From: Deltaproteobacteria bacterium | GTDB lineage: Bacteria > Desulfobacterota > Binatia > Binatales > Binataceae | DNA length: 34,885 bases | Direction: 5' to 3' | Assembly: GCA_021801125.1 (NCBI GenBank) | Contig: JAJYYI010000022.1 | Location: forward strand, 1-34,885 | Shown here: in pieces, positions 6,615 to 29,797 of the stretch | How positions within the stretch are numbered: position 1 is the first letter of the stretch | How the letters are laid out: each line of letters starts with the position of its first letter | Notes under the pieces: generated by a model | The model's database searches: none | The model's input: only the letters and a program-made list of their open reading frames with translations | Told to the model about the DNA's origin: nothing | Program-made: the position numbers and the translations under genes

Positions 6615-6684
6615 GCGCGTAAATGCCTGATTTTATTGGCTTTTTGGCGCTCCGGCCGACCTTCGGCAAGCCCGCGCCTAGACC

Positions 6685-6708
6685 GTTTGACAGCCAGTTT
6701 GACAGCCA
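6685..6708. repeat. Two tandem 12-bp repeats, probable integrase arm sites
   Basis: GTTTGACAGCCA occurs twice back to back at 6685-6696 and 6697-6708, between the tRNA 3' end and the integrase stop codon. Tyrosine integrases use short direct repeats flanking the crossover site as arm-type binding sites, and the position fits. Function inferred from position only. Confidence 0.55.
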
Positions 6709-6714
6709 CGAGGT

Positions 6715-10912: not shown

Positions 10913-10913
10913 G

Positions 10914-11588: not shown

Positions 11589-11859
11589 GGAATCATCGCC
11601 CGAACAGCGCGCCTTAGTTCTGCTTGAGCAGCTACGGCGCCAACACGCCAGCTTCGAGGGCATGGCGCGCCTGGCGAAGGCCTTACGCCCGGCGTTGTCT
11701 GGCGACCATCTTGTCATTCTCGACGCGGCCGAGCGCTACGCAGCAAGCCTGCCCAACCGACGGCTTGGCGACGACCCGGCTATCGCCGACGCGCTGGAGC
11801 AGTTAGACGCCCGCTTGGCGCAACGCACACACCCTAGGAAGCCAACCCATGGGACTTGA
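11581..11859 (+). CDS. Small helical protein of element 1, function unknown
   Basis: A 92-residue, mostly helical protein (EQRALVLLEQLRRQ, VILDAAERYAAS) without cysteines or a recognised motif. ATG 11581 overlaps the end of the preceding gene by 8 bp and its own end overlaps the next gene by 11 bp, consistent with one transcript. No counterpart was recognised in E2, so it may be specific to E1. Confidence 0.7.
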   Translation: MAKESSPEQRALVLLEQLRRQHASFEGMARLAKALRPALSGDHLVILDAAERYAASLPNRRLGDDPAIADALEQLDARLAQRTHPRKPTHGT

Positions 11860-12097
11860 ATCTGCCATCTTCACCCTCGCCCGCCTAGCCGAGGTGGAAG
11901 ACGCCCTGCTCGCCATCGCCGAAGTAATGCGCACCGGCGCCCGCAAGCTGCACGAACACTGGCGCACGTTCTCGACTGAACATCACCTCGAGCACGCCCG
12001 TGCGCACCTTCAGGCGTTCGACGCCGGCGACAGAAGCGAGGACCACCTGGCGCACGCGCCAACGCGCCTTTTGATGGCGCTGGCCACTAAAGCGTAA
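11849..12097 (+). CDS. Small phage-type protein, near-identical to element 2 copy
   Basis: An 82-residue helical protein with the pattern HEHWRTFSTEHHLEHARAHL followed by GDRSEDHLAHAPTRLLMAL. This resembles small phage/plasmid proteins of the DUF5664 kind (sometimes annotated as dATP/dGTP diphosphohydrolase-like), but that link is tentative. The gene at 32538 encodes an almost identical protein, and the first 100 or so bases differ at only a handful of positions. The two elements have therefore exchanged DNA recently or share a recent ancestor. Confidence 0.8.
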   Translation: MGLESAIFTLARLAEVEDALLAIAEVMRTGARKLHEHWRTFSTEHHLEHARAHLQAFDAGDRSEDHLAHAPTRLLMALATKA

Positions 12098-12098
12098 C

Positions 12099-12587
12099 AT
12101 GCCGCCGACGTGCCTTGCCTGTCGCCATGTTCGGCGCCGCGAGATTGACGAAGCGCTGCTCGCTGGCGAACCCCTGCGAAGCATCGCGAAAGGTGTTTCG
12201 TTATCGCCGGCGGCGATTTTCCGCCACAAAAGCCACCTTGGCGAGCGCTTGGTAGCCGTGCACAAGCAACAGGAAGCGCGCGAGGCCCGGACCTTAGCCG
12301 AGCGGCTGGACGAACTGGCCCGTTTTGCGAATACACTTGCCCGAGAGGCCGTGGATGGCGGCGACAAGCGAACCGCGCTGTTAGGCGTTCGCGAGCTGGC
12401 GCGGTTGTTGGAGCTGGAAGCGAGGGCGAGCTGCGAGCTTGCCCCAACCCCGCACGTGCAAGTTAACATCGCGAACCTGATGGCTTCGGACTTGGGCGCG
12501 CTCGATTTGGAGCAGCGCGAGTTGCTGTTGGACAAGCTTCTGGCGACCGGCGCGCGACCGCCAGTCTCCGCGCTGCGGGCGATCTAG
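12099..12587 (+). CDS. HTH protein, terminase-small-subunit-like
   Basis: A 162-residue protein with an N-terminal zinc-knuckle-like CLACRHVRRREIDEALL (residues 5-21) and a helix-turn-helix (GEPLRSIAKGVSLSPAAIFR, about 28-47), then long helices. This arrangement is common in small phage DNA-binding proteins placed where a small terminase subunit would be. No large terminase, portal or capsid gene is present, so E1 is not a complete prophage and may be a satellite or plasmid-like element. It starts 1 bp after the previous stop. Confidence 0.7.
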   Translation: MPPTCLACRHVRRREIDEALLAGEPLRSIAKGVSLSPAAIFRHKSHLGERLVAVHKQQEAREARTLAERLDELARFANTLAREAVDGGDKRTALLGVRELARLLELEARASCELAPTPHVQVNIANLMASDLGALDLEQRELLLDKLLATGARPPVSALRAI

Positions 12588-12605
12588 GACGCTGACAGCG
12601 GCGAC

Positions 12606-12760
12606 GACGCGGACTGAGCCCCATTAGGACCGCCAACGGGCTTTTCAATCGATGCTCGCCCCAAAAATTGGCACGCAAACGGGCTTCAGAGGTATCCTGA
12701 GGGTAAGACCTAGGTCACTATGCGCCCGGTTTTCGAGCTTCCGCGTAGGCCAAACCGGTC
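12606..12760. other. Conserved non-coding block shared with element 2 (copy 1)
   Basis: Lies between convergent genes. Positions 12671-12760 align without gaps to 33841-33930, at roughly two thirds identity by eye. Shared anchors include GGCACG-AAACGG, TCCTGA, CCTAGGTC, TGCG-CCGGTTT, GCTTCCGC-TAGGC and AAAC-GG. Further upstream, GACGC-GACTGAG-CC recurs at 12606 and 33787. No good reading frame is conserved, so a structured RNA or a cis-acting DNA site is likely. Confidence 0.6.
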
Positions 12761-12795: not shown

Positions 12796-12842
12796 GCTGG
12801 CTCACCTACCCCTCGGGAATGAGCGTGCTTGCCGAGATGGGC

Positions 12843-13166
12843 TCAGTGGAATCGTATGATTTCGGGCTTGGTCGGGGCTTCCGAATCGGGAACGAGCTCT
12901 CTTGCCGAGACGGGCTCAGTGTGATCGCAGTGGACCTCGTCGGACTCCCCGATACACTTTGCGCCAGGGCCAGCTATCCAATCGACGACGAGCGCCGCCA
13001 TCCTGAGCAGATCGTTACCCGTATCAGCGGTCTGATACGGGGTCGGATGCCACCACTTACCGCCATCGGAGCTGATGAAGATAGTCGCCGGCGGGTCTAG
13101 GAGGTCTGCGCCGACGAGGATGACCTGATCCCCATCATACTCTACTAGATACATCTTTCGTGGCAT
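12843..13166 (-). CDS. Unknown 107-aa cargo protein in repeat-bracketed slot
   Basis: A small acidic protein with no recognised family (it begins MPRKMYLVEYDGDQVILVGA; a middle part reads FISSDGGKWWHPTPY). The chosen ATG at 13166 has an excellent ribosome-binding site (AGGAGAAGGGAA directly upstream); the open frame reaches 13283 but that extension overlaps the neighbour and has no such site. It is flanked by 18-bp direct repeats and occupies the place where E2 carries an 87-aa gene and an AcrIII-1-type gene. That position makes it a candidate accessory or counter-defence protein; this is inference from position only. Confidence 0.72.
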   Translation of the reverse strand: MPRKMYLVEYDGDQVILVGADLLDPPATIFISSDGGKWWHPTPYQTADTGNDLLRMAALVVDWIAGPGAKCIGESDEVHCDHTEPVSARELVPDSEAPTKPEIIRFH

Positions 13167-13214
13167 TTCCCTTCTCCTTGCCCGGCCTTGCCACCGGGGC
13201 TGCGGTTTACGCCG

Positions 13215-13232
13215 GGCGATTCCTAGCGCCCG
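13215..13232. repeat. 18-bp direct repeat, right copy
   Basis: Identical to 12778-12795. This copy spans the TAG stop codon of the minus-strand gene ending at 13223, so it also encodes that protein's last residues. Confidence 0.85.
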
Positions 13233-13492
13233 ACCCGTGAGCCGGCAGCGCTGCCGCGCCACAAGCGGCGGTAGCCCTGCCACCTACCAACGTCCTTGCT
13301 GTACATGCGCGCCAAGCTGGCCATCGTGTCGAGGTGAAACGACGTGAGCGCCCCTAATTCTTCGCCGCGATAATTGACTGCGAGCTGAGCGACTTCGGCG
13401 GCCGCGCCGCGGATGGCGCAATTTGGGATGAAATCGCCGACCGTTCCGAATAACCGCTGCTCCTGCACTGCGCATAGCTCTTTCCTAGTCAT
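13223..13492 (-). CDS. Conserved small protein paralogous to 34547-34798
   Basis: An 89-residue protein. It shares with the E2 protein at 34547 a core VGDFIPNCAIRGAAAEVAQL / VADFIPAYAIVGAAQEVVGL and RGEELGALTSFHLDTMASLA / RGEELGPLASFHIDTLTALA. Family and function are not recognised. The C-terminal ten residues (GSAAGSRVGR) do not match the paralogue and run into the 18-bp repeat, so the end has been replaced. It is the promoter-proximal gene of the minus-strand cargo operon. AAGGGG lies upstream of the ATG. Confidence 0.78.
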   Translation of the reverse strand: MTRKELCAVQEQRLFGTVGDFIPNCAIRGAAAEVAQLAVNYRGEELGALTSFHLDTMASLARMYSKDVGRWQGYRRLWRGSAAGSRVGR

Positions 13493-13609
13493 AGTACACC
13501 CCTTTGCCGCGCCGGAACGTCTACACTACGTCTACACGGTCGGTTTAGCGAACCGTGCGGCATTCCATCGGGAGCGGGAAAAAGCCTTGAATTTCGCGGT
13601 TTTTTGGGT

Positions 13610-13651
13610 AGCCACCCGTCGGATTCGAACCGACGACCTGCTGATTACGAA
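13610..13651 (-). other. tRNA-Thr(CGT) 3' fragment, attachment-site scar
   Basis: On the minus strand the sequence reads anticodon loop TTCGTAA, stem half TCAGC, variable loop AGGTC, T-arm GTCGG-TTCGAAT-CCGAC, acceptor half GGGTGGC and discriminator T. The match stops exactly at the 5' edge of the anticodon loop; the next bases cannot form the other stem half. Tyrosine recombinases often cross over in the anticodon loop and leave this kind of 3' copy. It does not match the tRNA-Glu at 6537, so it belongs to a different integration event. Confidence 0.8.
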
Positions 13652-15981: not shown

Positions 15982-18900
15982 CTATGACTTCCGTTCGTTC
16001 AGGATGTTAAGGTAATGCCCGTCGTCCCATTCGTGTTCCAGGTACTGCCGGAAATCCTCAACCACAGAATTGATATCGCTCTTGTCCCAGAGGACCGAAG
16101 TCCGAGGTTGAAACGCGGAAAGCGAGACTGCCTTCGGAGTCTTTTCTCCAACCGCGGCGGCCAGTAGCTTGGCGAGCACCTCTAGATCCGCCGTCGGCAT
16201 CGTCCGCAGACACTCAGCCATCGTTTCCGCCGTGCGGGCAGCGAGGAGTTCCTGCGCGGGTTTCAGGTCGTGCGCGGACTCCAGTTTCTCGTGTATCCGT
16301 CGCGTCATCAGGAATCCCGCGAAGCGGAGCAGCGCGTCTTGTCCAGCGGCTTGTAATTGAGCAGCGGCCTCACGCCGACGTTCGACCTCTTCCGCCAAGC
16401 GCCGGAAACTCAGCTCGCGATTTTCAACTTCGTCGAGTACGGTCCCGCGTTCGCGAACCTCGCGCTCAGCGAGATCGCGATCCTCTGGCGAGCGGCGCAG
16501 CCGCGGCGGCCGCGTCGATGCGCTTTCACGAAGCGTTCGAGCCGCCGACTTTGCTTCGGTTACCGTCGAGAGCTGCTGCAAGACTCGAAGGGGATCGCCG
16601 CCTAGGATGCCGTTGGCGGCGGATTCCACGTCGGCCTGTGACGCCTGTAGCGCCATCAAATTGTCGAGATAGGCAGGTACGTACGACTTTTCCAGCTTTT
16701 CGAGTCGCGGCAGAAGCCGTGTCTGAACAGTGTCGGGGTTGATAATCAAGTCCGGAGCATTCTGAAGCTCTTTCTGTACTTCTTGCTGAGCACGCCCGAT
16801 CTCCACGGTCGCCGCATTATCGGGCGGAAGCGGAGCATTGGCCAATCGCGCGGCACGCAAGAGAAGGGTACGCGTGTCGGTGAACCGTTCGCGTAGCTCT
16901 TTGAGCCGTCGCACATTCTCACGAAACGTCGTTAGATGCGACGACGTCAGCTCTTCTACACTGGCTACGCCAGCCGCACAGACCACCGCCCTCGCGAATG
17001 CTTCAAAGACCTCATCATGAGAAAATGTCTCAGGCTTTTTCTCCTTGGCAAATTGCAGCCAAAAGAGCAGCAAGTCATCGAACGGGTTGTCGCGCTGGCG
17101 CTTCAGGATGCGAAACAGTTCCTTGAGATCGTCATCGATCCGCTGAAGATCGCCGGTTTCCAGCCAACGATCGGTCCACAACTCGCGGAGAGCTTCCTCG
17201 GCTCTTGGCTGGTCGTATTTCGTACCCAGGGAGCCGGGAGTCTGTTCGAGTACCGCTTCCAGATAGGGCGCAAGAAGAGGCCATGCTTCAGGCGCCTTGG
17301 CCAGCTCGATTCGTTGAAGTCCGCGAAGCGTCTCCGGTTTGAAGTCGATGTTGGCGATCGTGGACCTGTCGATCCACGCGCCCTTTCGATCGCTGATTCT
17401 GATCTGCCCCTGCTGCGCAAGGCAGAGCAGATAGACATCCACCATGCGACGGGTCAGCCCCGGCGACTCGTTCCCATCCTTTGGGTCATAGCCCGTGAAC
17501 CAATTGTAAACCGTTCGAATATCGAGGCCGGCGCCACCGCGTTCTTCAACACGTTCCCGGATCTGCTGGTAGAACTGGGAGCGCGACGGATTAAGCCGCC
17601 TCGGGTCGTTTTCATCAACAAGACCGAGCGGACCGGCAAAGTTCTCAACTGCGCTCCAGAGCTGATCGCCTTCGCTCACCGCTTTGCCCAGTTTGACGAG
17701 ACCGTTGATCAGCTTGACGGCGCCTTGCACGTCGAACTTGCGATTACCGAAGTCGATCGATTTCGAGGCATAGCAGGTATCCATCGCTTTGCGCGCCATC
17801 GATTCGATTGCGCCGCGAACGCCCCCGACCGTCTCAATTTCAAGCGAGGTTCTGCAGGTTTTTGCGACGCCCCGAGCGTAGATCGACTGGATGATCGCAA
17901 AAGCCCGTGACGCTTCACGGCGAAAAGTGATCCGCGCCTCTTTCGCGATTTTCGTGTCGTTGTCGCCAGCAACGTAAAGATGCGCCATAACCGCGGCCAG
18001 CGTCGCGCGTTCCTGTTCCGTTGGTTCTGCTGGCGCCCAGACGCACAGGCGCGGGTCCGCCGGCTGCCGGCGCTTGAGAAATGCCTCAACGTCCTTTTCC
18101 GTCGCGGGGCGGGTGGCGACAAAAATGGTGAAATCGTCTTCGTTGCCGTGAGTGTCAATCTCGGGCGGCTGGACGTTTGGCAGCGTGAGGTCGGCGCCGG
18201 TCACGCGGCCTGAGCGCTCCTGTCCATGCCAGGTGACCTTGATTTGAACCTGACGGCCTTCTTCAGCAGTAAGGAAATCCGCAAGCGGCGAGGATTCCTC
18301 GGCGTCGGAAAAGCGAAGAATCTGGTCGAGATATCGCAAGAACAGGGGCCGGTCGGTTTTGAGCTTTTCGGTCGCTTGGAAGACCAGATCGTCGTACTGG
18401 CCGCTCTCTTTGGGCACGAACTCGTAGCGGCCTTCGCGCTGCCGTATCTGGTTGCGCAGCTTGGTTCGCATTTCATCGAGCAGGGTCTCGTAATGGTCGA
18501 GCTGCGCCTGAAGTTGATCCTCACCCGGCTTCAGGTCGCACACCGCGTCGAGAATCTGCTCTTTGGTCAATCCCGCCACGCCGGCGATATGGTAGAGGAA
18601 CAACGTATTTAGGATGCGCTCGGCCCGCGTGCGATTCTGCGGACGGGCAAGCATTCCGTCATTGATTCGCTTCAGGGTTGCCTGAGCCGCTTCCAGTGCG
18701 GCCACTGCCTCCCTGAATCGGCTACGGATGCTGATGGCGCCTGATGCCGACGTGGAAGGCGTTTCGGCGTACGACATGAGATCGTCGAATACGTTCCAAA
18801 GCGGCACGAGATCTTTGTCCTGCTTCTGGATCGCACGCTTGAGCGCCGTATGCAGGAACGCGATCGTCGAGCGCGTGCCGGTAAGCCTGGTCGAAATCGC

Positions 18901-20124
18901 CCGGATGATCTCGATCGACTCCGGCGGGAAAGGGAACGAGGCCTCGAAATCCTCGGCGCTGGTGTTTTTCACCCACGGGATGAGGCTCTTGTATCCCGAG
19001 TAGTAAACCGAAACGGCTCTACGATCTATGATGGTCCGGGTCCTTTGGACGACGATATCGCGGAAGCGTTCGGCCTTATGCTCCAACAGCTCCTCGCGCA
19101 GACGATCGGGCCCGATTATTTTGCGAGGATTGGTATGTTCCGACTGCGCCGCGACGATCGTCCAGATCGGAAGCCCGTCCGACTTGGCAAGTTTGCTCGA
19201 TAGCGTGAGCAGGCAATCCTCGTCTTCGGCGGTGAACTGCGAGCGGCGCAGATACTCGGACATCTCGTCGATCGCGATTAGAACTCCCTTGTAGCCCGCC
19301 TCAAGGATGTCGCGCACCGCCCGCGACAGGCGCTCACCGCGCTCCGTCGCGACCTTGGGCGCCAGGTTCTTGTACCGATAGAAAGCCGCCAGTACCCGGC
19401 CTGCGTCGCGCTGAGAGGCTGGCTCTTTCAGCGCCCGGATCAGCTCGTCGTACTCATACTTCGGCAGGCCTCGCGTCAGCCTCTGGTCGGCCAGGAACGT
19501 GCGCAAATCGTTTCGGAAGAGCCGTTCGTGTTCCTGGAGGAACAACCGGGCTAGATGTTCTTCGGGATATACCGCAAGTGGTTTGCCCTGCAGAAGGTCG
19601 AAAGTGGTTTGGGCCTCCTCCAGGACGAAGTCTTCGAGTTTGCGATCGTGGCCGCCGCCGCTACCTTCGAGCGAGAAGACGATCGGGAAAATCTTCTTGT
19701 TCTCGATTTTCTTCCGCCAGACGGAATCCAGCCGGGCCCCTGGTCCGGCCTTTTTCTCTTCGTCCTCGCGCTGCTTTACGCGATCCCATGCGCGCGGCCC
19801 GCCGAGCGCGATAACCGCGCTCGCCGCCAACAGATGCGACTTGCCGACGCCGAACTCCGCCTGAATCCAGAAACCCTGCCCCTCGTCTTCAGCGATCCGC
19901 TGCAGGATATCGTTCAGGTAGCGGCGCACCGGGTCGATGAAGAATTCGTCGAGCGTCTCAAGCCGTACGCGCCCTTTCTTTTTGGACTCCCGGCGTTCCG
20001 CGTCGCTCTTGCCTTCCCAGACGTGCTGAGTCAGCGAGTAGACGCTGTGGACTTCCTTTGGGACCTTGAGGATGTCCTTGAGCGGCGGGCGCGCCGCAAA
20101 ATTCGAGAGACTCGACTGACTCAT
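15982..20124 (-). CDS. brxC: BrxC-like giant P-loop ATPase (DUF6079 type), last gene of BREX-like operon
   Basis: A 1380-residue protein. The AAA-type ATPase is N-terminal: Walker A in IQAEFGVGKSHLLAAS (residues about 87-102), a long insert, then Walker B VLIAIDEMSEYL (281-292). The large remainder is helical, and its last 300 residues are arginine/glutamate rich with likely coiled coil (EEVERRREAAAQLQAAGQ). This matches BrxC/PglY proteins, which power BREX complexes and are needed for both methylation and phage blocking. Best resemblance is to the DUF6079-type BrxC, not to the E. coli type 1 protein. The ATG overlaps the methyltransferase stop by 4 bp. Confidence 0.82.
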   Translation of the reverse strand: MSQSSLSNFAARPPLKDILKVPKEVHSVYSLTQHVWEGKSDAERRESKKKGRVRLETLDEFFIDPVRRYLNDILQRIAEDEGQGFWIQAEFGVGKSHLLAASAVIALGGPRAWDRVKQREDEEKKAGPGARLDSVWRKKIENKKIFPIVFSLEGSGGGHDRKLEDFVLEEAQTTFDLLQGKPLAVYPEEHLARLFLQEHERLFRNDLRTFLADQRLTRGLPKYEYDELIRALKEPASQRDAGRVLAAFYRYKNLAPKVATERGERLSRAVRDILEAGYKGVLIAIDEMSEYLRRSQFTAEDEDCLLTLSSKLAKSDGLPIWTIVAAQSEHTNPRKIIGPDRLREELLEHKAERFRDIVVQRTRTIIDRRAVSVYYSGYKSLIPWVKNTSAEDFEASFPFPPESIEIIRAISTRLTGTRSTIAFLHTALKRAIQKQDKDLVPLWNVFDDLMSYAETPSTSASGAISIRSRFREAVAALEAAQATLKRINDGMLARPQNRTRAERILNTLFLYHIAGVAGLTKEQILDAVCDLKPGEDQLQAQLDHYETLLDEMRTKLRNQIRQREGRYEFVPKESGQYDDLVFQATEKLKTDRPLFLRYLDQILRFSDAEESSPLADFLTAEEGRQVQIKVTWHGQERSGRVTGADLTLPNVQPPEIDTHGNEDDFTIFVATRPATEKDVEAFLKRRQPADPRLCVWAPAEPTEQERATLAAVMAHLYVAGDNDTKIAKEARITFRREASRAFAIIQSIYARGVAKTCRTSLEIETVGGVRGAIESMARKAMDTCYASKSIDFGNRKFDVQGAVKLINGLVKLGKAVSEGDQLWSAVENFAGPLGLVDENDPRRLNPSRSQFYQQIRERVEERGGAGLDIRTVYNWFTGYDPKDGNESPGLTRRMVDVYLLCLAQQGQIRISDRKGAWIDRSTIANIDFKPETLRGLQRIELAKAPEAWPLLAPYLEAVLEQTPGSLGTKYDQPRAEEALRELWTDRWLETGDLQRIDDDLKELFRILKRQRDNPFDDLLLFWLQFAKEKKPETFSHDEVFEAFARAVVCAAGVASVEELTSSHLTTFRENVRRLKELRERFTDTRTLLLRAARLANAPLPPDNAATVEIGRAQQEVQKELQNAPDLIINPDTVQTRLLPRLEKLEKSYVPAYLDNLMALQASQADVESAANGILGGDPLRVLQQLSTVTEAKSAARTLRESASTRPPRLRRSPEDRDLAEREVRERGTVLDEVENRELSFRRLAEEVERRREAAAQLQAAGQDALLRFAGFLMTRRIHEKLESAHDLKPAQELLAARTAETMAECLRTMPTADLEVLAKLLAAAVGEKTPKAVSLSAFQPRTSVLWDKSDINSVVEDFRQYLEHEWDDGHYLNILNERKS

Positions 20125-22988
20125 TCGTCCGAGGCCTCCTCGGCTTCCTCCGATTCCTCTTCAGCTTCCGGCTGCCCCGCTGCGCGGCGGGCGGCGCGCC
20201 GGCAGCGCTGATACCATTCTTCGGCGTCGTACCGATCATCCTCGCCAAGCTGCGCGAGCTGGGCGGCGAGGCCGCCCTGTTCAAAAAGCACGACGCCCTC
20301 CTCGGCAAGACCGAACATAGCGCAATGCTTCATCCAGGCGTGCAGCGTCTTCAGGTCGGGGCGGCGCTCGGGCGGAAAGTCGCCTTCGCCTCTTATAAAG
20401 GCTACGAACTGGCGGATGCGCCGGCCGATGCCGGTCTGACGGGCGGCGCATAGCGAGGCGGCTTCGTTGTGGTCGGGCGCCCGGTAAAGCCACTTTTCGC
20501 CGTCGCGGAAACGCACAAGGTATTCATCGAGAAACTCCGCCAGGTTGCGCCGTGGCGTCGCTCCGGCCCCGCGGCCTTTGAGCCATCGCGTCAGGTAAAA
20601 GAACAGGCAATCGTAGAACTCGACGCCCCTGAGCCGTCCAGCAAGCTTGAAGGCTGCGGCTTGCTTCGCGTCCTTTATGAGCGACCGTTTGATGAAGGAC
20701 TCGATATCGTTGATGAAGGACTCGATATCGTTTTCGGCGGTGTCTTCATCGGCCAGATGCGGCGTCTTTAACACGATCTCCGCCCCGAAGGTCGCCGGCA
20801 CGCCCGCACAGCGCAGCCGGGCGAAACGCACCAGCGCATCGCCGGCCCGCTCTTCGTTTTGGATATCGCCTTCCGAAAGGCTTTCGAACTCCTCTTTTAG
20901 GAACCAGCGCCCGGACTCGGAACGGAACGCCACTTCGGAAAGGATGTCGTCAAAGCGATGCTCCGCCATCTGGCCGCGTGTCAGCAGGCGTTTGAGCACC
21001 GTATCCCACAGCTTGTCGCGGGTCTGCCCGGCGGTTGCGGAGAGCGTCTCGATGAGGATTTCGCGGACGCGCGCGGACACGAACCGCAGCTCGCCCTGCC
21101 CGTTCTCGCCCCGTTCGCCGGGGCGCGCCTTGCGGCAGTTCAGGACGAGATCGGACTTTACCACCTTCTCCGCGAAAAGCTGATTGAGACTCTTTTGCCT
21201 TGGATCGAGGACGGTGACCGTGTGAATTTCAAACCCGGTGTCCAGCAGCATGTTCTGGACGCGAGTCCACGTGCCAGGATCGGTGTCGTGGTAGCAGAGC
21301 GAAAGCCACCGGCCAGGCTTAAGCGCTTCATAGCAGCGCGCCAGCACCGCTCGAAGATCGCTTTCCCAGTCGTCAACTGACTTGTTCCGGAAGGGATTTA
21401 CGATAATTTCGTCGTTTAGCCACGAACCGTCGAAGCCTAGCCATGACTCCCACACGAAATTGAGCTCACCATATTGAACGCTGTCGACATAAGACGGGTC
21501 GGTAAAGATGTAGTCTATTGAAGCGGCTTGCAAGCATTGTGCGGTTCCAGCGCTTTCTGCTGTCACGACCGCGTCGCCATTCAGATAATCGAGCAATGTG
21601 TGCTCCGCTTGCTCGATCTTCTTTACCTTGTTAATGAGGTGCCGCGTTGGGGTTTCGATGCTCGAGATCTGAGGAATGTAGTAGGTTCCTGTGAGTAGAT
21701 AGAACGGAAAGGTGGCGTACGGAACGTACCTGTTCATTCGACTCAGGCCCATGCAGACGCCGGTGAATGCAAGCTGTAGCGCTTCAACTGACTGCTCTGG
21801 CTGACGTGTACGTCGCAGTGCGGAGAGCCATGCTGCGAGCGCCCAGAGGTTGCGCTTGGTGTAAAGGTCTTTAAGTTCCCGCGCATCCTCGGGCCGGAAG
21901 TCTTTTTTATAGCCAAACCTGTACGGGAGCGCTTTCCAAAGGTCACCCTTCGGGTACCAATGCGGGCTCTCGGCTCTTTCGATCGTCTCGATCTTCCCGA
22001 GGTCGTACTTCTCAAAATACCGGCCCTTGCGCGAGCGCCGGTCTTCATCGTGCCGGCGCTCATCGGATTTAGGCTTGCATCTGTCAAGGCAACCGTAGCG
22101 AACAAGCACCGGAACCGCGCCGAACTTCTTCGTGCGCGTCGAGATAACGAACTCGCGATGCGGATGGCCGTGGCTTGCGGCCAGGCAATGCGGGCAGACC
22201 CGTTTTTTCTTCAGTTCCGTCCGCCCGGCTTTCCTGCCGCCGACCGGATAGGGCACCTGCTTTTCCGGACAGTCGAACAGCGCCACCACCTGCGCGCAAT
22301 TCGGGCATTGAAAGCGCTCCGAATAAACCACATACTCCGTGGTCGCCTCTCCCTCGCATCGGTCGCATCGCGTCTCGTAAAGCCAATCCAGTTCCTGCTC
22401 AAGGTTCGCGATATCCTTGCCAGTTATTTCCTTGAGCTTGCGCCGGAGATCGGCCGGATATGGTTCAGTCATCGTCCGCTCGTAGGCGGCGCGCAGCTCG
22501 TCCGGATCTACCGGATGGGTGTAGCAATGCGAAATGAAGGCGGCGGCGGGCGAGGCGTCGATCAGCACGCACGGCCGATCCTCCATCATCGCGGCCACGC
22601 CCGTCATCCCGGAACCGGAGAAGCAATCGAGAACCAGGCCGGTTCCACGCGGATAATATTTCTCCGGCACGTAATGGCGGATGTATTCCCGGATTGCGGC
22701 CCAATGCTTCTTCGACCAGTAGCTGTGCATGTCGTAGATCGCCTTGGGCGGCGCAGCCTTATCGACGATCAAGTCGCGGTCGAAGGCGGGAACGTCGTAT
22801 TTGTCCGTGGCCGGATCGTAAGGCGTGGCGTGCGCCTTGATGAATTCCTCAAGCCGCGGATTCGGCCCCGGCACAAACGGCTCGTAGGGGCGCGGCGCGG
22901 ATTTGGCCGACGCCTTGAGCTTGAGAGTTTCCTGTGATGGAGCTTTCGCGGATACGGACCTGATCGCCACCTGGTTTATCCCCCTCAA
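20121..22988 (-). CDS. Zinc-ribbon DNA methyltransferase of the BREX-like operon
   Basis: A 955-residue amino-methyltransferase. The SAM-binding motif LVLDCFSGSGMTGVAA is at 118-133. The catalytic motif IV is DPSY (497-500, context YIFTDPSYVDSVQYG), with the motif order of alpha-class enzymes. Between them are cysteine pairs at 208/211, 228/231 and 265/268 plus C300/C304, which look like zinc ribbons in the region expected to read DNA. The C-terminal 400 residues are unrecognised and end acidic. It occupies the PglX place, but PglX is larger, usually has NPPY and lacks such ribbons. It probably marks host DNA at the system's recognition site. Both ends overlap neighbours by 4 bp. Confidence 0.82.
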   Translation of the reverse strand: MRGINQVAIRSVSAKAPSQETLKLKASAKSAPRPYEPFVPGPNPRLEEFIKAHATPYDPATDKYDVPAFDRDLIVDKAAPPKAIYDMHSYWSKKHWAAIREYIRHYVPEKYYPRGTGLVLDCFSGSGMTGVAAMMEDRPCVLIDASPAAAFISHCYTHPVDPDELRAAYERTMTEPYPADLRRKLKEITGKDIANLEQELDWLYETRCDRCEGEATTEYVVYSERFQCPNCAQVVALFDCPEKQVPYPVGGRKAGRTELKKKRVCPHCLAASHGHPHREFVISTRTKKFGAVPVLVRYGCLDRCKPKSDERRHDEDRRSRKGRYFEKYDLGKIETIERAESPHWYPKGDLWKALPYRFGYKKDFRPEDARELKDLYTKRNLWALAAWLSALRRTRQPEQSVEALQLAFTGVCMGLSRMNRYVPYATFPFYLLTGTYYIPQISSIETPTRHLINKVKKIEQAEHTLLDYLNGDAVVTAESAGTAQCLQAASIDYIFTDPSYVDSVQYGELNFVWESWLGFDGSWLNDEIIVNPFRNKSVDDWESDLRAVLARCYEALKPGRWLSLCYHDTDPGTWTRVQNMLLDTGFEIHTVTVLDPRQKSLNQLFAEKVVKSDLVLNCRKARPGERGENGQGELRFVSARVREILIETLSATAGQTRDKLWDTVLKRLLTRGQMAEHRFDDILSEVAFRSESGRWFLKEEFESLSEGDIQNEERAGDALVRFARLRCAGVPATFGAEIVLKTPHLADEDTAENDIESFINDIESFIKRSLIKDAKQAAAFKLAGRLRGVEFYDCLFFYLTRWLKGRGAGATPRRNLAEFLDEYLVRFRDGEKWLYRAPDHNEAASLCAARQTGIGRRIRQFVAFIRGEGDFPPERRPDLKTLHAWMKHCAMFGLAEEGVVLFEQGGLAAQLAQLGEDDRYDAEEWYQRCRRAARRAAGQPEAEEESEEAEEASDE
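20691..20732. repeat. Perfect 21-bp tandem duplication inside methyltransferase
   Basis: GATGAAGGACTCGATATCGTT occurs at 20691-20711 and again at 20712-20732. It adds seven in-frame residues (the ESFIND-type segment appears twice). The absence of any mismatch implies a recent event or active length variation. Confidence 0.9.
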
Positions 22989-23569
22989 TCGGCGAGCTCA
23001 AAGACCCATCCCGAGTGCCGGAAAATCAGGGGATCGGGAAACTCGCGGCGGGCCTGCGGGTCTTCGTCGAAAATCCAGAGCCGGCCGTCGCGCATCGCGC
23101 CCGGCACAAGCAGGCATACCCGTTTGCCGTTGATCGCAACCTGGCGAACCAGCGAAATGTCGTTATTGCCGATGTCGTAGGCATAGAGCAACTCGAAGTC
23201 CGCCAACACCAGGCCCACGATGTCGGGCTTTTCAATCCTGCTCGTGATTAGGTCGCGAAAGGTTTCGGAAAGGAGCCGGCGCAACTGCTCGTCATGATGA
23301 TTGTCGGCCAAAGCCCCGGCGCGCTCGTATTGCCCTTTTTGCTTCAGTTGGTGGTAGATCGCACGATTGATTGACAGGTATTCGACCGTGCCGAGCCGGT
23401 TGAAACTGCCGGCCTGCACCTGCTCGCGCAACCGCGCCTGAAAGGGCGCGAGCCGGGAGTAAGGACCGAAAACGCAGTAGACATGCCGGTCGTGCGCGGG
23501 AATTTCGAACAGCGTGGCGAGACGCTGGAGAATCTCGTTCGCCGGCAATCTTTTAATCTCCCCCTCCAC
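22985..23569 (-). CDS. Small BREX-like operon protein in the BrxB position
   Basis: A 194-residue soluble protein. It begins with a helical part (ANEILQRLATLFEIP), has a strand-rich centre (VGLVLADFELLYAYDIGN), and ends FRHSGWVFELAD. The size and place between the BrxA-like gene and the methyltransferase fit BrxB (DUF1788) of other BREX systems, but similarity by eye is weak. BrxF or BrxE analogues are alternatives. No P-loop is visible. The start overlaps nothing upstream (6-bp gap); the end overlaps the methyltransferase ATG by 4 bp. Confidence 0.6.
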   Translation of the reverse strand: MEGEIKRLPANEILQRLATLFEIPAHDRHVYCVFGPYSRLAPFQARLREQVQAGSFNRLGTVEYLSINRAIYHQLKQKGQYERAGALADNHHDEQLRRLLSETFRDLITSRIEKPDIVGLVLADFELLYAYDIGNNDISLVRQVAINGKRVCLLVPGAMRDGRLWIFDEDPQARREFPDPLIFRHSGWVFELAD

Positions 23570-23575
23570 GCGCCG

Positions 23576-24460
23576 TTACTCTCCTCCCTTTGGAAACAGG
23601 GAACCTTGCGGAGGCGGAAACAGAGAACGCTGCTCGGCTTGTTGCTCACGCCGAGGACGGCGATCGGCCGGTCTTATTGGAGACGTGCTTACGCGGCCGT
23701 TCGACGCGGTCTCGGCCAACAAAAGCTCCATTCGCGCGGCGCCGGAGTCAGCCAGCGTGAACTGATGGTACTGGTCGAGTTCCGAGACCTTCGAGACATG
23801 GCCGGCGTTCATCGCCGCCTGCAGCAGACCGGGAAGCGCCGCGCGCGGCCAGAGCATCGCGCGGACTTCCGGCGTCGCGGCGAACAGATCGACTCGCGTC
23901 ATGGTGCGCTCCGGAAACATCCGAGCCAGCACGTATAGAAAAGCTTCAATTGGCGGCTCTGCTCGAAGCGGTATCAGGATCGCGGGTTTGGACGGCGCAA
24001 GCTTCCGGCATCTTCGCAGTGCCGTCACGATCGCCTGGGCCACACGTTCGACCTGCTTACCTTCAAGCCGCGGGCCAAGGAACGAAAGCAACGCGGACCG
24101 CGGTGCTCCGGCTTCGTCCTGCTCCGCGAGCCAGAGCGAGGCCGTGTCCTTGAGAATTGGCACGGCTTCGATCAGCTCAAAATAGAAGATCTCACGGCCA
24201 GTGCGAGAATCACCGAACCTCGCAAGCGCGCGCGCGAGGTCAAGATTCATGCGACCGTCATGGGAGAAGCGCTGGGCGATGTATTCGGCGTAACGAAATC
24301 GCGTGATGGCGCTGCTATGGTGAAGCTTGGCGGTCAGATAAGCGCGAAATTCAACCGAGGTCGGATGAGAGAGCGCCGCGGGGAGATGCTGAAGGCTCTC
24401 CTCGATCAACGGATTATTGAAATAGGTGCGGCGCCAGCGCTGCGATATCGCCCTGGTCAC
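23576..24460 (-). CDS. BrxA-like small helical protein of the BREX-like operon
   Basis: A 294-residue protein beginning RAISQRWRRTYFNNPLIEES and largely helical, with a basic, low-complexity C-terminus (REQQAEQRSLFPPPQGSLF). BrxA (DUF1819) proteins are about 200 residues and DNA-binding; this one is longer and only loosely similar, so the BrxA label rests mostly on size and operon place. The ATG overlaps the brxL stop by 4 bp, and a 6-bp gap follows to the next gene. Confidence 0.6.
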   Translation of the reverse strand: MTRAISQRWRRTYFNNPLIEESLQHLPAALSHPTSVEFRAYLTAKLHHSSAITRFRYAEYIAQRFSHDGRMNLDLARALARFGDSRTGREIFYFELIEAVPILKDTASLWLAEQDEAGAPRSALLSFLGPRLEGKQVERVAQAIVTALRRCRKLAPSKPAILIPLRAEPPIEAFLYVLARMFPERTMTRVDLFAATPEVRAMLWPRAALPGLLQAAMNAGHVSKVSELDQYHQFTLADSGAARMELLLAETASNGRVSTSPIRPADRRPRREQQAEQRSLFPPPQGSLFPKGGE

Positions 24461-26466
24461 AACAAAACCTCCGCCAGCGCCTGCTCGGCCTTCTCGACAA
24501 AGCTGAGACGAACTCCCTCGACAAGTTGCGGCGGCAGCTCGCGCGTCTCAGGTTCGTTCTCCTTGGGAACGATCACTACGCGCGCGCCGGCATGGCGCGC
24601 GGCGGCGATCTTCTGGGCGATGCCGCCTACGGCCAGGATGTTTCCGTGAAGCGTTATCTCGCCGGTGATCGCAACGTCGTTTCGAACTTTTCGCTGTGTG
24701 AGTGCTGAGACGATACCGACGGCGAACGCCAGGCCCGCTGAAGGCCCTTCCTTCGGCACGCCGCCCTGTAAAGCCAAAATCGACAGGTTGTATCCGTCCT
24801 TGAACTCGGAGACAATCTGGAAGGCTTTTCGGCGGTGCGAGACGAAATCGTAAGCGGCTTTGACCGACTCCTTCATCGCCTTGCCCATTGAGCCGAGGCG
24901 GTGCAGCGCGCCGTGGCCCTTCTGCGCCACCACTTCGATCAACTGAAGGGTGCCGGCTCCGTCGTCAGCCACCGCAAGGCCCACTACCACTCCGACCTCG
25001 GGCTCGCTCGGCAGGCGAAGCGCCCGGCGGCGGGCTCGTTCGGGCGGCGCGCCGGAGCCTGCCTTGCCCTCGATCTCGTATTCGATTGTGTAGGCGGGAT
25101 ATTCTCCCGGCGCCAGAACGCCCAACTGATCCTTGATCCGCTGTCGGCATTCGACGGCCAGCTGGACATATTGTGCAAGCTCCTCGTCGGTCGCCTTGCC
25201 GTCCGGATGCAGAAGCTTCATCAGGCCGCGGACGATTCGCTGAATCGCCTCGATATCCCGGCCCTTGGCGTTGCGCAGGCGAAACCGCTGAGCGGGATCG
25301 CTCGGCAGCAGAGTGCCGCGAAACAGATGAAGCAGCTCGGCGAAATAATCGAGGGTGAAGCCCCACTTTTCGGCGAAGCTACGATCCGTGAGCTTCGGCA
25401 TTTCCCAGCCGGGCAGAAAAGCGTGAATGCGCTCGAATAGCGCAGTATCGATCATCTCTTCCGGAAGCGGCTCAAAGAGATGCTCGTACTTTTCATGGGG
25501 AAGGCTCCCGAGCACATCCAGGTTACCTACGAAGGCGACCGATGCCTCGCCCTTGACATTGAATCGGCCGAGGCTGAAGTTGCCGTATTCGAGGTAGTCC
25601 TTGAATATCGAGATCGTCGCCAGAGGGTCCTTGAATTCGGTGTTGGCGATTTCATCGAACACGAGGGTGTCGAACTGAGCGACCAGGCCCGGCTTGCCGT
25701 TTCCGGCGTGCACGAAGAGCGCGGCGGGCGTCGCCCGTCCGCCCGATAGCATGTAGGTGTAATAGGAAAGATTCTTGTAGACGTAGCTCTTTCCGGTCTC
25801 GCGCGGCCCCAGCTCGATCATGTTGACCATCCGCTCCGCCATCGGCACCAGGCGCAGCACCGCAAGCAGCTTCTGCCGGGTGGTCAGAACCTCGGGATTG
25901 AGGCCGATGGTGTTAACGATCAGATCGAGCCATTCATCACGCGAGAACGCGCTGCGCTTCTGGAGATATTCGTTGAGGTCGATTTTGCCGTGCTGGAACG
26001 GTGTGAAATCCGCGAGAGTGAGCGGGGTTATTTTCTTCTTCCAGACCTGCGCCTCGTCATAAGCGAGTTCCGCGATACCCCACATGCCGCCCATCAGACG
26101 GGGGTATTTGTTGACCAGGTTCTCATCGATGTGGATATGACGCTCATTCAGGGCAGCGAGAGAAGCCCAGTATTTGTCCTCAGTAACCTCCAGGCGCACC
26201 TCGACGCGCGCGATCAGATCGAGACGGCGGCGCTGCTTCAGTTGATGGAGGATACGGGGCGCATCAGCGGGCGACGCGTAGTTTTCAGCAAGCTTGCGCC
26301 GCACCCGGCCAATCTCGGCGTCGAAATCGTTGCCGGGACAAAACTGGTTGATCAGGTATTCGATGACGTAGCGCGGAAACTCCTTGAGATCGCTTAGACG
26401 AGTGCGGCGTTTCTCGACCACCAGGCTGCCAAAAATTTCGCGTGGCTTTTCTTCCCCGCCCATCAC
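24457..26466 (-). CDS. brxL: BREX Lon-like ATPase/protease BrxL
   Basis: A 669-residue two-domain protein. The AAA+ domain has Walker A LGPRETGKSYVYKN (219-232) and Walker B LVFDEIAN (268-275), with a probable arginine finger in ALFERIHAFLPGWEMP. The C-terminal Lon-type domain keeps the catalytic dyad: serine in KEGPSAGLA (Ser576) and lysine in AVGGIAQKI (Lys619). Together they match BrxL, which forms ring-shaped DNA-binding assemblies in BREX systems. Both domains look intact. Its ATG overlaps the pglZ stop by 4 bp and its stop overlaps the BrxA-like gene by 4 bp. Confidence 0.93.
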   Translation of the reverse strand: MMGGEEKPREIFGSLVVEKRRTRLSDLKEFPRYVIEYLINQFCPGNDFDAEIGRVRRKLAENYASPADAPRILHQLKQRRRLDLIARVEVRLEVTEDKYWASLAALNERHIHIDENLVNKYPRLMGGMWGIAELAYDEAQVWKKKITPLTLADFTPFQHGKIDLNEYLQKRSAFSRDEWLDLIVNTIGLNPEVLTTRQKLLAVLRLVPMAERMVNMIELGPRETGKSYVYKNLSYYTYMLSGGRATPAALFVHAGNGKPGLVAQFDTLVFDEIANTEFKDPLATISIFKDYLEYGNFSLGRFNVKGEASVAFVGNLDVLGSLPHEKYEHLFEPLPEEMIDTALFERIHAFLPGWEMPKLTDRSFAEKWGFTLDYFAELLHLFRGTLLPSDPAQRFRLRNAKGRDIEAIQRIVRGLMKLLHPDGKATDEELAQYVQLAVECRQRIKDQLGVLAPGEYPAYTIEYEIEGKAGSGAPPERARRRALRLPSEPEVGVVVGLAVADDGAGTLQLIEVVAQKGHGALHRLGSMGKAMKESVKAAYDFVSHRRKAFQIVSEFKDGYNLSILALQGGVPKEGPSAGLAFAVGIVSALTQRKVRNDVAITGEITLHGNILAVGGIAQKIAAARHAGARVVIVPKENEPETRELPPQLVEGVRLSFVEKAEQALAEVLL

Positions 26467-29111
26467 TCGTCTCCAAACAACTTAAGCAGCTTCGCTTTGG
26501 CAGCCGTCTCGCTGTCCGCCGGCCGCGCGGCAGGGAGAACCTCCACCTCGCCCTGGCACTGGCCAACCTTAGCGCCGCCAAGCCACGCCGTCACAGTGAT
26601 CCGCTGCCTACCCGGCGCCGTGGGCGCGAATCTGAGATGAACGATCTTAGGAATTGAACTGACTTCAGCGATTGTGGCGCTCTCGATGGCGTCGTTGTCG
26701 CTCGTCAGCAACAAGGGGGACGCCAGCAGACCGTCGGCCGAGACGCTGACCTCGATGAAAGCGGGTTCACCAACGCGCACGCCCTCGCGAGCGGCAAACG
26801 AGAGCCTGACGCTCACTCTGGCCTTCCGATGACGGAGGCACGCCAGCGGCACGACCACTTCAAACATGCTGAGGCCGCCGTGTCGGTAGGTTGCCGTTGG
26901 ATGAAAGCGTCCGCCAGAACGTGAGGCGTCGTAGAGAGCGTAGCCAGGACGCGGAAAGAGCCACCAGCCGGGCCGATTATGACGCAGAACCTGGGCCGGA
27001 ATCTGAAACAGAGCGCTCGCCCATTTGCCCTCGACACGCCTCGCAGAATAGGCGGAGCGATAACCAACGTCCTGCGCGCCCTCGAGATTTACGCGCGCTC
27101 CCTGAGACTGCAGTATGTGCCCGTGATCTGCGGTTATGAAGACCAGGCAGTCAGGCCCGACCTCCGCCAACAGCGCTTGCACTTCTCTGATGAGAGGTCG
27201 TTGGGCTTCCTGCAGGGTATGAGGATCCCAATCGACTTCGTGCGAAAGCGCATCGGGAAAATCGAAGACCGCAGCCCAGGTTTTGTCTTTCTCGCCACGG
27301 CTTTGGACGCCGAAGACCATGCCCTGTCGCTTGTGTGGAACCTCCTCGAACGTAACCTGATGGCCATGGACGCGCTTCAGTAATTCCGCGAACAGATCAG
27401 ACTCTTTGCCGGAAGGAGGCAGAAGCGCCGGCGGCTGACCCGCAAAGAACGCGCGCCGCGAGTATTCCGTCATCGAGGGCAGGACCGCGAAACCAAGCTG
27501 TTCGTCGCAGACGTATTCGTGCTCCAACGCGGGCCGCAGCAGCTCGCGCCAGATGTCGAACCGCATGCTGTCAACCACGAGCACGAGGGCCTCGCCAAGC
27601 TTTCCGTCGATGCTCCGCCGCCTTGGAGCCATGAAATCCGCATAGAACTTATCCGTCTGGAGTATCTCCGCCGGAACCATCTCGCCGAAACGGGATTCGA
27701 GAAGCCGTCCGAAACGCAGATCAAGGTCGTCTCGGAGCTTCCCAGCGAGCACGATGAGGTCTCGGCACTCCCGGACTTCTTTGTTCCACCGCTCTGCAAA
27801 GCCCGGCACCAAACTCCATTTTCGCCGTGCCGGCCCTTCGATGTCGGCGATCAGTCTCTGAAGGCGACCAACAATGCGGTCTGAGCGATAAAACTGTTGG
27901 TCCGCGAATACTCTCAACAGGTCGCGGCTTGATATTTCCTTGTCGGGCCGGAGCTTCAAGCCCTCAACGGGTCGCTTAGCCTCCTGGATCAGTTTCTGTA
28001 GTTCAGCCTTGAACTGGCGAAATTCCGGCACAAGATGACCGAGCTCAAAGCTCGCTTCAGCAGCCGCGTCGCCGAGGCCCCGCGAGGGCTGAAGTTCAAA
28101 AGGAGCAAGCGAGCGCAACCGTTGCGACATCTGCTCGGCCTGTACAAATTTTCTGGCTTGATCGGGCGCGTCCAGATTCAGGACGGAGCGCAGATGCGCC
28201 AGGAATTCATCGGTGCAAAGCTCCTCGAAGCACGGAATCTCGCCCTCGATGAACCACGAGGGAACTTCCTTCTGAGTGGGTAGGCGAGCCTCGCGGTAAC
28301 GACCAAGGTCTGGTGAAAGAAACTCTAGATGGCGTCCCGCGCCGTCTGGAAAGTGCTGCTGTAATACGAGAAGCGCGACCACGGCCGTCCGGGCAAGACC
28401 AGCGTTCGACCCGAACAGATCGCCCAATGGGATTGGAAGATCGCACAGTTTGGCGCGAAGCACGCCGAGCTCGCGTTCGTTGAAGAACTCAAGCAGGCGC
28501 TCCCAATTTTCGTGAAAAGCGATCCAGAGAGCGTCGTACGGACTCGTCAGGTCGAAGAGATCGATTCCAAACAGGGCGCTCGCTCCGACGACGATCAAGT
28601 CATCGTCAGTGATTGTCCGTCCGCTTCGGCGAAATGTCTCGAAAGCGCGGATAAAGGGCGCCGGCCGGTCGCGGGCGAGCTTCTCATAGGGAAAAACGTT
28701 GACCTGAGAGGGCCAGTTAGCATAACCGCTTACTGCGGTCAGGAAACTTTGCACCGTAAGGCGTAAGCGCGCGTCAGGCACCACTTGGCGCAGCCAGTCG
28801 GGCGCGGTTAAGGGAAGCAAGTCCGTTGGCTTGGCGTCGCGAGGCAGCTCACTGCCATCGCGTACTGTGTAAGAGCGGTCGATTACCACCACACGCGAGC
28901 GATTCATCAGCAGATCAAGCTCATTTAATCGTTCGCGCAGCCGGAACGCGTTGTCTGCGGCGACAATGCGAGTGCCCGCGCTCGCCAAGCGCTTTTCAAG
29001 GTCCAATATCGCATCGTCCGTCAGGAGGCGGTACGGGTCTTCTATCCAAAGGATCGTTTCCCGATCGCTCAGATTCTCAAGTTGGCTTACAGCCCATTCA
29101 GAGGCGTTCAT
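26463..29111 (-). CDS. pglZ: PglZ, alkaline-phosphatase-superfamily BREX protein (first gene)
   Basis: An 882-residue protein. Its C-terminal half has the PglZ metal-binding pattern: VLVVDSMRFDIWREL (about 510-524), LPSMTEYSRRAFFAG (544-558) and VFITADHGHILQS (657-669). The N-terminal 450 residues hold helical and coiled regions typical of the family. PglZ is the hallmark of BREX and PGL systems and is needed for their modification and exclusion activities; its exact chemistry is unsettled. Here it leads the operon, whereas in type 1 it is near the end. The 96 bp upstream, after the brnA stop, should hold the promoter, but no clear -35/-10 pair was identified. Confidence 0.94.
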   Translation of the reverse strand: MNASEWAVSQLENLSDRETILWIEDPYRLLTDDAILDLEKRLASAGTRIVAADNAFRLRERLNELDLLMNRSRVVVIDRSYTVRDGSELPRDAKPTDLLPLTAPDWLRQVVPDARLRLTVQSFLTAVSGYANWPSQVNVFPYEKLARDRPAPFIRAFETFRRSGRTITDDDLIVVGASALFGIDLFDLTSPYDALWIAFHENWERLLEFFNERELGVLRAKLCDLPIPLGDLFGSNAGLARTAVVALLVLQQHFPDGAGRHLEFLSPDLGRYREARLPTQKEVPSWFIEGEIPCFEELCTDEFLAHLRSVLNLDAPDQARKFVQAEQMSQRLRSLAPFELQPSRGLGDAAAEASFELGHLVPEFRQFKAELQKLIQEAKRPVEGLKLRPDKEISSRDLLRVFADQQFYRSDRIVGRLQRLIADIEGPARRKWSLVPGFAERWNKEVRECRDLIVLAGKLRDDLDLRFGRLLESRFGEMVPAEILQTDKFYADFMAPRRRSIDGKLGEALVLVVDSMRFDIWRELLRPALEHEYVCDEQLGFAVLPSMTEYSRRAFFAGQPPALLPPSGKESDLFAELLKRVHGHQVTFEEVPHKRQGMVFGVQSRGEKDKTWAAVFDFPDALSHEVDWDPHTLQEAQRPLIREVQALLAEVGPDCLVFITADHGHILQSQGARVNLEGAQDVGYRSAYSARRVEGKWASALFQIPAQVLRHNRPGWWLFPRPGYALYDASRSGGRFHPTATYRHGGLSMFEVVVPLACLRHRKARVSVRLSFAAREGVRVGEPAFIEVSVSADGLLASPLLLTSDNDAIESATIAEVSSIPKIVHLRFAPTAPGRQRITVTAWLGGAKVGQCQGEVEVLPAARPADSETAAKAKLLKLFGDE

Positions 29112-29207: not shown

Positions 29208-29498
29208 TCATCGACCTTCAGACTCCTCATTTGGTAGCTCAAGCTCACGCTTCAATCGTTCGGCTACGAACATCTTGAGCAGCGACTGATAGGGAACGTC
29301 GCGCTTGTTGGCCAGCTGCTTCAGTCGAGCAAGCATCGGCTTGGGCAGCCGGAGCGAGATTGTTTGCGACGACGGCTTCAGGTTCGGCAGGGTAGCGCGC
29401 CCGGCCTTGCGCCAGTCGATGAACTCGGTCGAATCGTGACTGGCCCAGAACTCGCGCTCAGCATCCTCGTTCTTGAATCGCGGTATCGGCTTTTTCAT
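29208..29498 (-). CDS. brnA: BrnA-type antitoxin (CopG/RHH)
   Basis: A 96-residue protein with the BrnA layout: an N-terminal ENEDAEREFW-like segment (KNEDAEREFWASHDSTEFID), then SQTISLRLPKPMLARLKQLA, which forms a ribbon-helix-helix DNA-binding domain. BrnA neutralises BrnT and represses its own operon. It starts 4 bp inside the brnT stop (ATGA), the usual toxin-first order of brnTA. It lies 96 bp upstream of pglZ on the same strand, so read-through into the BREX operon is possible. Confidence 0.88.
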   Translation of the reverse strand: MKKPIPRFKNEDAEREFWASHDSTEFIDWRKAGRATLPNLKPSSQTISLRLPKPMLARLKQLANKRDVPYQSLLKMFVAERLKRELELPNEESEGR

Positions 29499-29797
29499 GA
29501 TTCTTTGTAAACCTTCCGCTCCTTTCGGCTCATGTCGCGGGCTGAAATCACGCGAATTCGCCGCGCCCGGAGAGTGAACACCACGAAAAGCTGCCGGCCA
29601 GCGTCGGTCTGGCCAAGCGCATAAAATCGGTCTTCGTGCTCTGAATGCCTTTCGTCCTCACCGACGATCAGCGGCCGGTTAAAAAACAACTCTTCGCACT
29701 CAGTTGGCGTCACTCCATGGCGTTCCCAGATCTTGGCCGAGTTGCCAGCATCCCATTGGAAGCCCTCGCACTCGCCCAGTCTCTCCTCCCAGCCCAT
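29495..29797 (-). CDS. brnT: BrnT-type ribonuclease toxin
   Basis: A 100-residue protein matching BrnT (RelE-like fold ribonuclease): FQWDAGNSAKIWERHGVTP near the start, a middle GEDERHSEHEDRFYALGQTD, and RRIRVISARDMSRKERKVY at the end. BrnT cleaves RNA and halts growth until BrnA binds it. ATG 29797 is preceded by a short region (29798-29830) with an AT-rich CATAATATACAC stretch on the coding strand that may contain the -10 box. Confidence 0.9.
   Translation of the reverse strand: MGWEERLGECEGFQWDAGNSAKIWERHGVTPTECEELFFNRPLIVGEDERHSEHEDRFYALGQTDAGRQLFVVFTLRARRIRVISARDMSRKERKVYKES

Follow-up and report, generated by a model that had tools for sequence, protein, structure and literature searches.

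A BREX-superfamily operon that pairs a PglXI-like methyltransferase with a BrxL keeping the Lon protease dyad

Described BREX types and the operon

Among the described BREX systems, Type 1 has the gene order brxA-brxB-brxC-pglX-pglZ-brxL, Type 3 brxF-brxC-pglXI-brxHII-pglZ-brxA and Type 4 brxP-brxC-pglZ-brxL. In Type 1, BrxL is a DNA-binding AAA+ ring (PMC10164562), and its Lon-like part has been described as lacking the protease motif (PMC10164562 and a 2026 survey, PMC12839542). The survey reports BrxL as entirely absent from Type 3, and describes a DUF499-centred Type-3 BR system that includes an inactive STAND protein and in which some of the methyltransferases carry two 4-Cys motifs (PMC12839542). 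We analyzed a six-gene operon at positions 15982-29111 of the window, a stretch of 34,885 nucleotides from a contig of a Binataceae genome. The operon is likely a BREX-superfamily anti-phage system of a separate, so-far-unnamed type. Judged by homology, it is a mix of a Type-3-like BrxXI and BrxB/BrxF, a BrxA-like protein, a BrxC from a clade of its own, a PglZ whose tail resembles that of Type 1, and a BrxL that replaces the Type-3 helicase.

With Type 3 the operon shares a methyltransferase of the PglXI superfamily, a BrxF-like BrxB, a BrxA-like protein, PglZ and BrxC, but it has BrxL in place of BrxHII and contains no helicase gene. The methyltransferases of its group also have eight insert cysteines where Type 3 has four, and mostly DPPY rather than DPPF; the group PglZ carries a C-terminal extension, BrxC belongs to another clade, and the gene order is different. 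The likeness to Type 1 lies in the domain plan of BrxL, in BrxA, BrxB and BrxC, in a PglZ with a C-terminal extension, and in the gene order of most group relatives, which start with brxA-brxB and finish with brxL. Unlike Type 1, however, the operon has a PglXI-like methyltransferase instead of PglX, its BrxL keeps the Lon dyad, and its BrxC and PglZ fall outside the Type-1 clade. Type 4 likewise brings BrxC, PglZ and BrxL together, with a BrxA of SspB/DUF4007-like fold, whereas in the operon a methyltransferase stands in for the phosphorothioation gene, and the Type-4 BrxL has no Lon domain. No BrxP or PAPS reductase gene was detected in the operon with Pfam, and it holds none of the Type-2 genes PglW, BrxD and BrxHI. 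The Type-3 BR system also couples a PglXI-like methyltransferase with PglZ, but the ATPase of the operon is of the DUF6079 and not the DUF499 kind, BrxL stands where a helicase would, and PglZ is not a standalone domain.

Because the survey has no BrxL in Type 3, the combination of a BrxXI-like methyltransferase with BrxL fits none of its types; the operon breaks the published rule that the two are not found together. A search of the open-access literature for a further BREX type, with the supplementary tables of the survey outside its scope, found none. As the survey left out a small fraction that it could not assign, its authors may have met these loci without naming them (PMC12839542). The preliminary description had proposed a distinct or hybrid subtype after comparison with Types 1 and 4. 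The proposal of a distinct subtype with mixed features is supported, as the methyltransferase does not fall within PglX, the gene set matches no named subtype, BrxXI and BrxL are combined in no published type, and the group forms its own clade in trees, but the comparison missed Type 3, home of the closest methyltransferase relatives. One conserved operon thus unites core components otherwise characteristic of Type 1 and of Type 3, and would add a BREX type largely missed by current annotation models, with BrxC, BrxA and BrxB of the window left unnamed by NCBIfam.

Operon layout and recurrence across genomes

The six open reading frames are intact and lie on the minus strand, transcribed in the order pglZ, brxL, brxA-like, brxB-like, methyltransferase, brxC-like (Table 1). 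Their junctions in transcription order measure -4, -4, +6, -4 and -4 bp, in agreement with the tight coupling described earlier. Catalytic residues are present in PglZ, the methyltransferase and BrxL of the window. PglZ and BrxC are encoded together, a pairing that recurs in relatives. A decayed operon, or one without a defence role in this host, is very improbable. Such a reading could draw on its rarity among kin (among 96 relatives searched with the methyltransferase, the only full-length match was in the genome of the window) and on a shortened BrxC remnant in one related locus (L060), but it has to contend with six intact frames, catalytic motifs and overlapping junctions.

Table 1. Genes of the operon in transcription order, with coordinates in the window
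Gene and product	Coordinates	Strand	Length and start	Basis of assignment
pglZ, first gene	26463..29111	-	882 aa	Pfam PglZ, site residues, tail length, trees
brxL: BrxL_N + AAA+ ATPase + C-terminal Lon domain	24457..26466	-	669 aa, full length	Pfam, dyad checks
brxA-like DNA-binding protein, HTH-rich	23576..24460	-	294 aa	relatives' Pfam BrxA matches, predicted fold
brxB/brxF-like	22985..23569	-	194 aa	relatives' NCBIfam BrxF matches, predicted fold
PglXI/BrxXI-like DNA methyltransferase	20121..22988	-	955 aa, TTG start	PADLOC PglXI, tree, motifs
brxC-like large AAA+ ATPase, last gene	15982..20124	-	1380 aa	Pfam DUF6079, alignment, tree

Just upstream of pglZ, at 29208-29797 on the minus strand, lie a BrnT-type toxin gene (Pfam, 6e-25) and, after it, a small gene in the antitoxin position. 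About 9 kb from the operon, at 6537-8172, a tRNA-Glu adjoins a tyrosine integrase gene, which suggests that the window copy may have arrived on an integrated element; no exact repeat of the tRNA-Glu was found elsewhere in the window, and hence no att site is shown.

Within the phylum of the window, a BrxC search recovered the full set of six genes in two more genomes, one of which carries two copies. A BrxC alignment run against 84,980 species genomes picked up 24 loci, spread over around a dozen phyla of bacteria and two genera of archaea, in records named Deltaproteobacteria, Omnitrophota, Synergistaceae, Chloroflexi, Armatimonadetes, Pelotomaculum and other Firmicutes, Spirochaetales, WOR-3, Patescibacteria, Binatia, Verrucomicrobia, Bacteroidales, Methanosaeta and Methanolinea. 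Alignment searches of viral-collection contigs added two loci, L066 and L067, and likewise recovered L192. The methyltransferase used alone as query against genome contigs found nothing, whereas the BrxC alignment did find loci; BrxL alone as query against viral contigs also found nothing. A BrxC search of plasmid and phage records gave no member save a distant locus on a Halorarius plasmid (L022:11863-21685). This locus encodes a PglXI-like methyltransferase, BrxA, a BrxB-like protein, BrxC and PglZ, with no adjoining BrxL or helicase gene.

Each counted once and the window included, 13 loci hold the six genes: the window, L131, L039, L040, L041, L043, L045, L049, L050, L051, L056, L066 and L067. 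Here L131 is on the same contig as L042, L041 is taken as the same locus as L047, and L067 is counted although a contig end cuts its BrxL. The presence of the same six families together in 13 loci means that the grouping is not due to chance, and a chance or assembly-made cluster was rejected on this basis. Neither BrxHII nor PglX was matched in the 13 six-gene loci at the limit used. A further locus, L044, has the methyltransferase, BrxC, PglZ and BrxL with its start missing; many others stop at a contig edge, and metagenome-assembled genomes are the source of most loci. In three exceptions (L052, L053 and L055) PglZ and BrxL are not nearby. The first of these (L052:7428-13207) has a group BrxC next to a reverse transcriptase gene but none of the other core genes, and a similar lone BrxC occurs in L053. 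Within the phylum of the window the operon is rare, BrxL of this group being found in 3 of 395 genomes, that of the window included.

The common gene order is brxA-brxB-MTase-brxC-pglZ-brxL, or one with the methyltransferase between pglZ and brxL. The six-gene set recurs in unrelated microbes, and the exact order of the window, pglZ-brxL-brxA-brxB-MTase-brxC, recurs once, in L131, whose proteins are 45-75% identical. The order earlier called non-classical is confirmed for the window itself and is partly a rotation of the common one. Several loci carry additional genes or rearrangements. In L131, genes for an AAA_21 ATPase and a DUF4276-like protein lie between brxB and the methyltransferase (10663-12628), possibly a second defence pair in the operon. 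Between the methyltransferase and brxC, L041 has a HEPN gene whose neighbour is nucleotidyltransferase-like (10724-11468) and L039 a DUF7662 gene (12829-13650); the extra frames that precede brxC in L048, L051, L066 and L067 likewise match the methyltransferase C-terminus. Two short in-frame remnants, either of which could be a natural deletion or an assembly join, were found: one that joins the N- and C-terminal ends of BrxC (L060:4271-4750), and one that joins a BrxA-like start to late PglZ (L192:8576-9937).

Affinities of the methyltransferase, PglZ, BrxC and the BrxA- and BrxB-like proteins

The best match of the window methyltransferase is PADLOC PglXI (4.1e-82), which is also matched by all 17 aligned relatives. 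A profile of the enzyme compared with solved structures matched N6/N4 methyltransferases around motif I; PglX was not found among these matches, nor was there an NCBIfam PglX match for the window enzyme, and the identification as PglX was rejected. As had been described, the methyltransferase stands apart from PglX: PADLOC gives PglXI, and the tree places it beside the Type-3 enzymes. By its sequence affinities it is a sister group of Type-3 PglXI/BrxXI and not a new kind. The alpha order reported for it is also correct, with motif I (DCFSGSG) followed by an insert, motif IV (DPSY, 497-500) and a long C-terminal part. The insert contains eight cysteines (C208, C211, C228, C231, C265, C268, C300 and C304), which are kept in 14 of 15 group methyltransferases, compared with four of those in the alignment of Type-3 methyltransferases (8/8). 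A different way of recognizing DNA had been proposed for this enzyme. Given its sister position, a DNA-reading insert within the methyltransferase is already known from Type 3, and what sets the group apart is eight insert cysteines against four.

The trees included Type-1 references (annotated plasmids and loci of the same phylum), Type 3 and Type 4, with Types 2, 5 and 6 absent; a search of the phylum for Type-2 references gave none that reached the cut-off. In quick trees the group occupies one side of a branch with SH-aLRT values of 99 for the methyltransferase, 100 for BrxL, 99 for BrxC and 93 for PglZ. A careful PglZ tree gave 82/77, so that support for the group from PglZ is moderate. 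The window and L131 form the first, deep branch inside the group in each tree. The group is thus apart from the Type-1, 3 and 4 references in the PglZ and BrxC phylogenies that the preliminary description had suggested. In the BrxC tree, the nearest neighbour of the group is the Halorarius sequence.

PglZ of the window is matched by Pfam PglZ with 41.2 bits (cut-off 25), and falls short of the Type-2 PglZ model (55.8 bits, cut-off 200). All seven site residues examined are present (D514, T548, D620, H624, D662, H663 and H744). Its C-terminal extension measures 118 aa, within a group range of 116-152 aa; the corresponding tail is 90-134 aa in Type 1 and 0-4 aa in Type 3, where the protein ends after the catalytic domain. 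The earlier assignment of a DUF6079-type BrxC holds narrowly, with DUF6079 as the sole Pfam match of the ATPase at 25.6 bits, just above the cut-off of 23. The NCBIfam BrxC score is far under its cut-off (17 vs 400), and in an alignment with three relatives the window BrxC is 31% identical to the main group.

It is improbable that the operon is an ordinary Type-3 BREX in which BrxL was simply swapped for the BrxHII helicase and the gene order shuffled. The methyltransferase is closest to PglXI, BrxB matches BrxF, and PglZ lies on the Type-3 side of its tree; the survey also presents BrxL and helicases as thought to share one job (PMC12839542). However, Type-3 references form their own clade for the methyltransferase, PglZ and BrxC (SH-aLRT 100 in each), BrxC lies apart from that of Type 3 and in a search did not significantly match the Type-3 BrxC sequences of L024 and L025, and Type 3 lacks the PglZ tail and the four extra insert cysteines. 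The replacement of BrxHII by BrxL is common to the whole group and therefore not local.

Taken alone, the BrxA-like and BrxB-like proteins of the window have no convincing family match in PADLOC, Pfam or NCBIfam. Among their relatives, Pfam BrxA is matched by 5 of 22 members of the BrxA-like family, and NCBIfam BrxF (Type 3) by 18 of 19 in the BrxB-like family. The predicted fold of the BrxB-like protein (mean pLDDT 87) has as first match the solved Acinetobacter BrxB (9zll; E 5e-5, TM 0.62-0.65), and a Walker A motif was not matched in the window protein. It appears to resemble Type-3 BrxF in sequence and the solved Type-1 BrxB in predicted fold. The predicted fold of the BrxA-like protein (pLDDT 84.6) matches SspB (6juf; E 8e-5), whose DUF4007 family is described as BrxA-like in the survey (PMC12839542). 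A RadC-type (UPF0758_N) N-terminal domain is found in 15 of 22 BrxA relatives and is absent from the window copy.

BrxL and its Lon protease site

The most unusual feature of the operon, absent from the preliminary description, is that BrxL keeps the Lon protease dyad. The window protein matches BrxL_N (2e-26), BrxL_ATPase (4e-107) and Lon_C (1e-48) in Pfam, with Walker A GPRETGKS and Walker B FDEI, and the Ser-Lys dyad is found in GPSAG (S576) and GGIAQK (K619). When group BrxLs are aligned with the Lon of the host, 12 of 12 show both residues; the pair is also found in L192 and in L040, the second copy of genome G413, giving 14 of 14 readable proteins, with L067 uninformative where the contig end cuts before the site. 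By comparison, the dyad occurs in 0 of 12 Type-1 BrxL references. In a wider set of 395 phylum genomes the pair was found only in BrxL matches of this group (at least 1123 bits), both residues together occurring in 0 of 27 further phylum BrxL loci (at most 543 bits). Outside this clade, no sampled BrxL keeps the dyad.

The Lon domain of the window BrxL shares 40% identity with host Lon, against 6-27% with the C-termini of Type 1; for the AAA+ part the figures are 35-40% with Type 1 and 17% with Lon. The protein shares with housekeeping Lon the C-terminal Lon_C domain and the same dyad, but its N-terminal and AAA+ parts are those of BrxL. This pattern of identities is compatible both with an active ancestral domain that was retained and with one gained later. 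From these sequence features BrxL of this type is probably an active AAA+ protease, and proteolysis may form part of the anti-phage defence. It is unlikely that the Lon domain is only structural, with the dyad kept for folding or by chance in a system that works like Type 1. Type-1 BrxL does function although it has no Lon active-site motif, and methylation does not require it (PMC10164562, PMC13326643). Yet Ser and Lys are kept in every group BrxL, even though the window protein shares just 44-46% identity with most of these, the domain is 40-45% identical to host Lon, and relatives with a degenerate Lon domain have lost the pair.

A possible, tentative interpretation is that the operon represents a separate BREX type in which BrxL would be a working, DNA-loaded, ATP-dependent protease, restriction would extend to the destruction of proteins on the DNA of the invader, and Type-1 BrxL would be a relative without this once-shared activity. 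On the likelier reading, of a separate BREX type as such, the methyltransferase would mark host sites, reading DNA via its internal zinc-binding insert. BrxC, BrxB and PglZ would form an ATP-dependent core that permits methylation and switches to restriction on unmarked phage DNA, which PglZ would nick; a BrxB:BrxC:PglZ complex and PglZ nuclease activity are supported by work on Type 1 (PMC13326643). BrxL would assemble on DNA as an ATP-driven ring, like its Type-1 relative (PMC10164562), and, as the Lon chamber keeps the Ser-Lys dyad, would probably also degrade proteins drawn into it, such as replication or anti-restriction proteins of the phage on the incoming DNA. We infer methylation, nicking, ring assembly and proteolysis in this operon from sequence and by homology.

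Lon-type proteases are often regulators, and the protease could thus be regulatory and not a direct effector, with BrxL keeping BREX quiet or clearing BREX subunits or a phage inhibitor. This reading, which also draws on the dedicated factors that keep Type-1 BREX in repressed stand-by (PMC13326643), is about as unlikely as a purely structural Lon domain. The Lon-like part of BrxL has been written off as inactive on Type-1 evidence, and a clade with an intact site offers a direct test of its role. A separate unusual set was seen in L120 (2-12593), which combines a PglX-like methyltransferase, a large ATPase, a PglZ closest to Type 4 and a BrxL without the Lon site.
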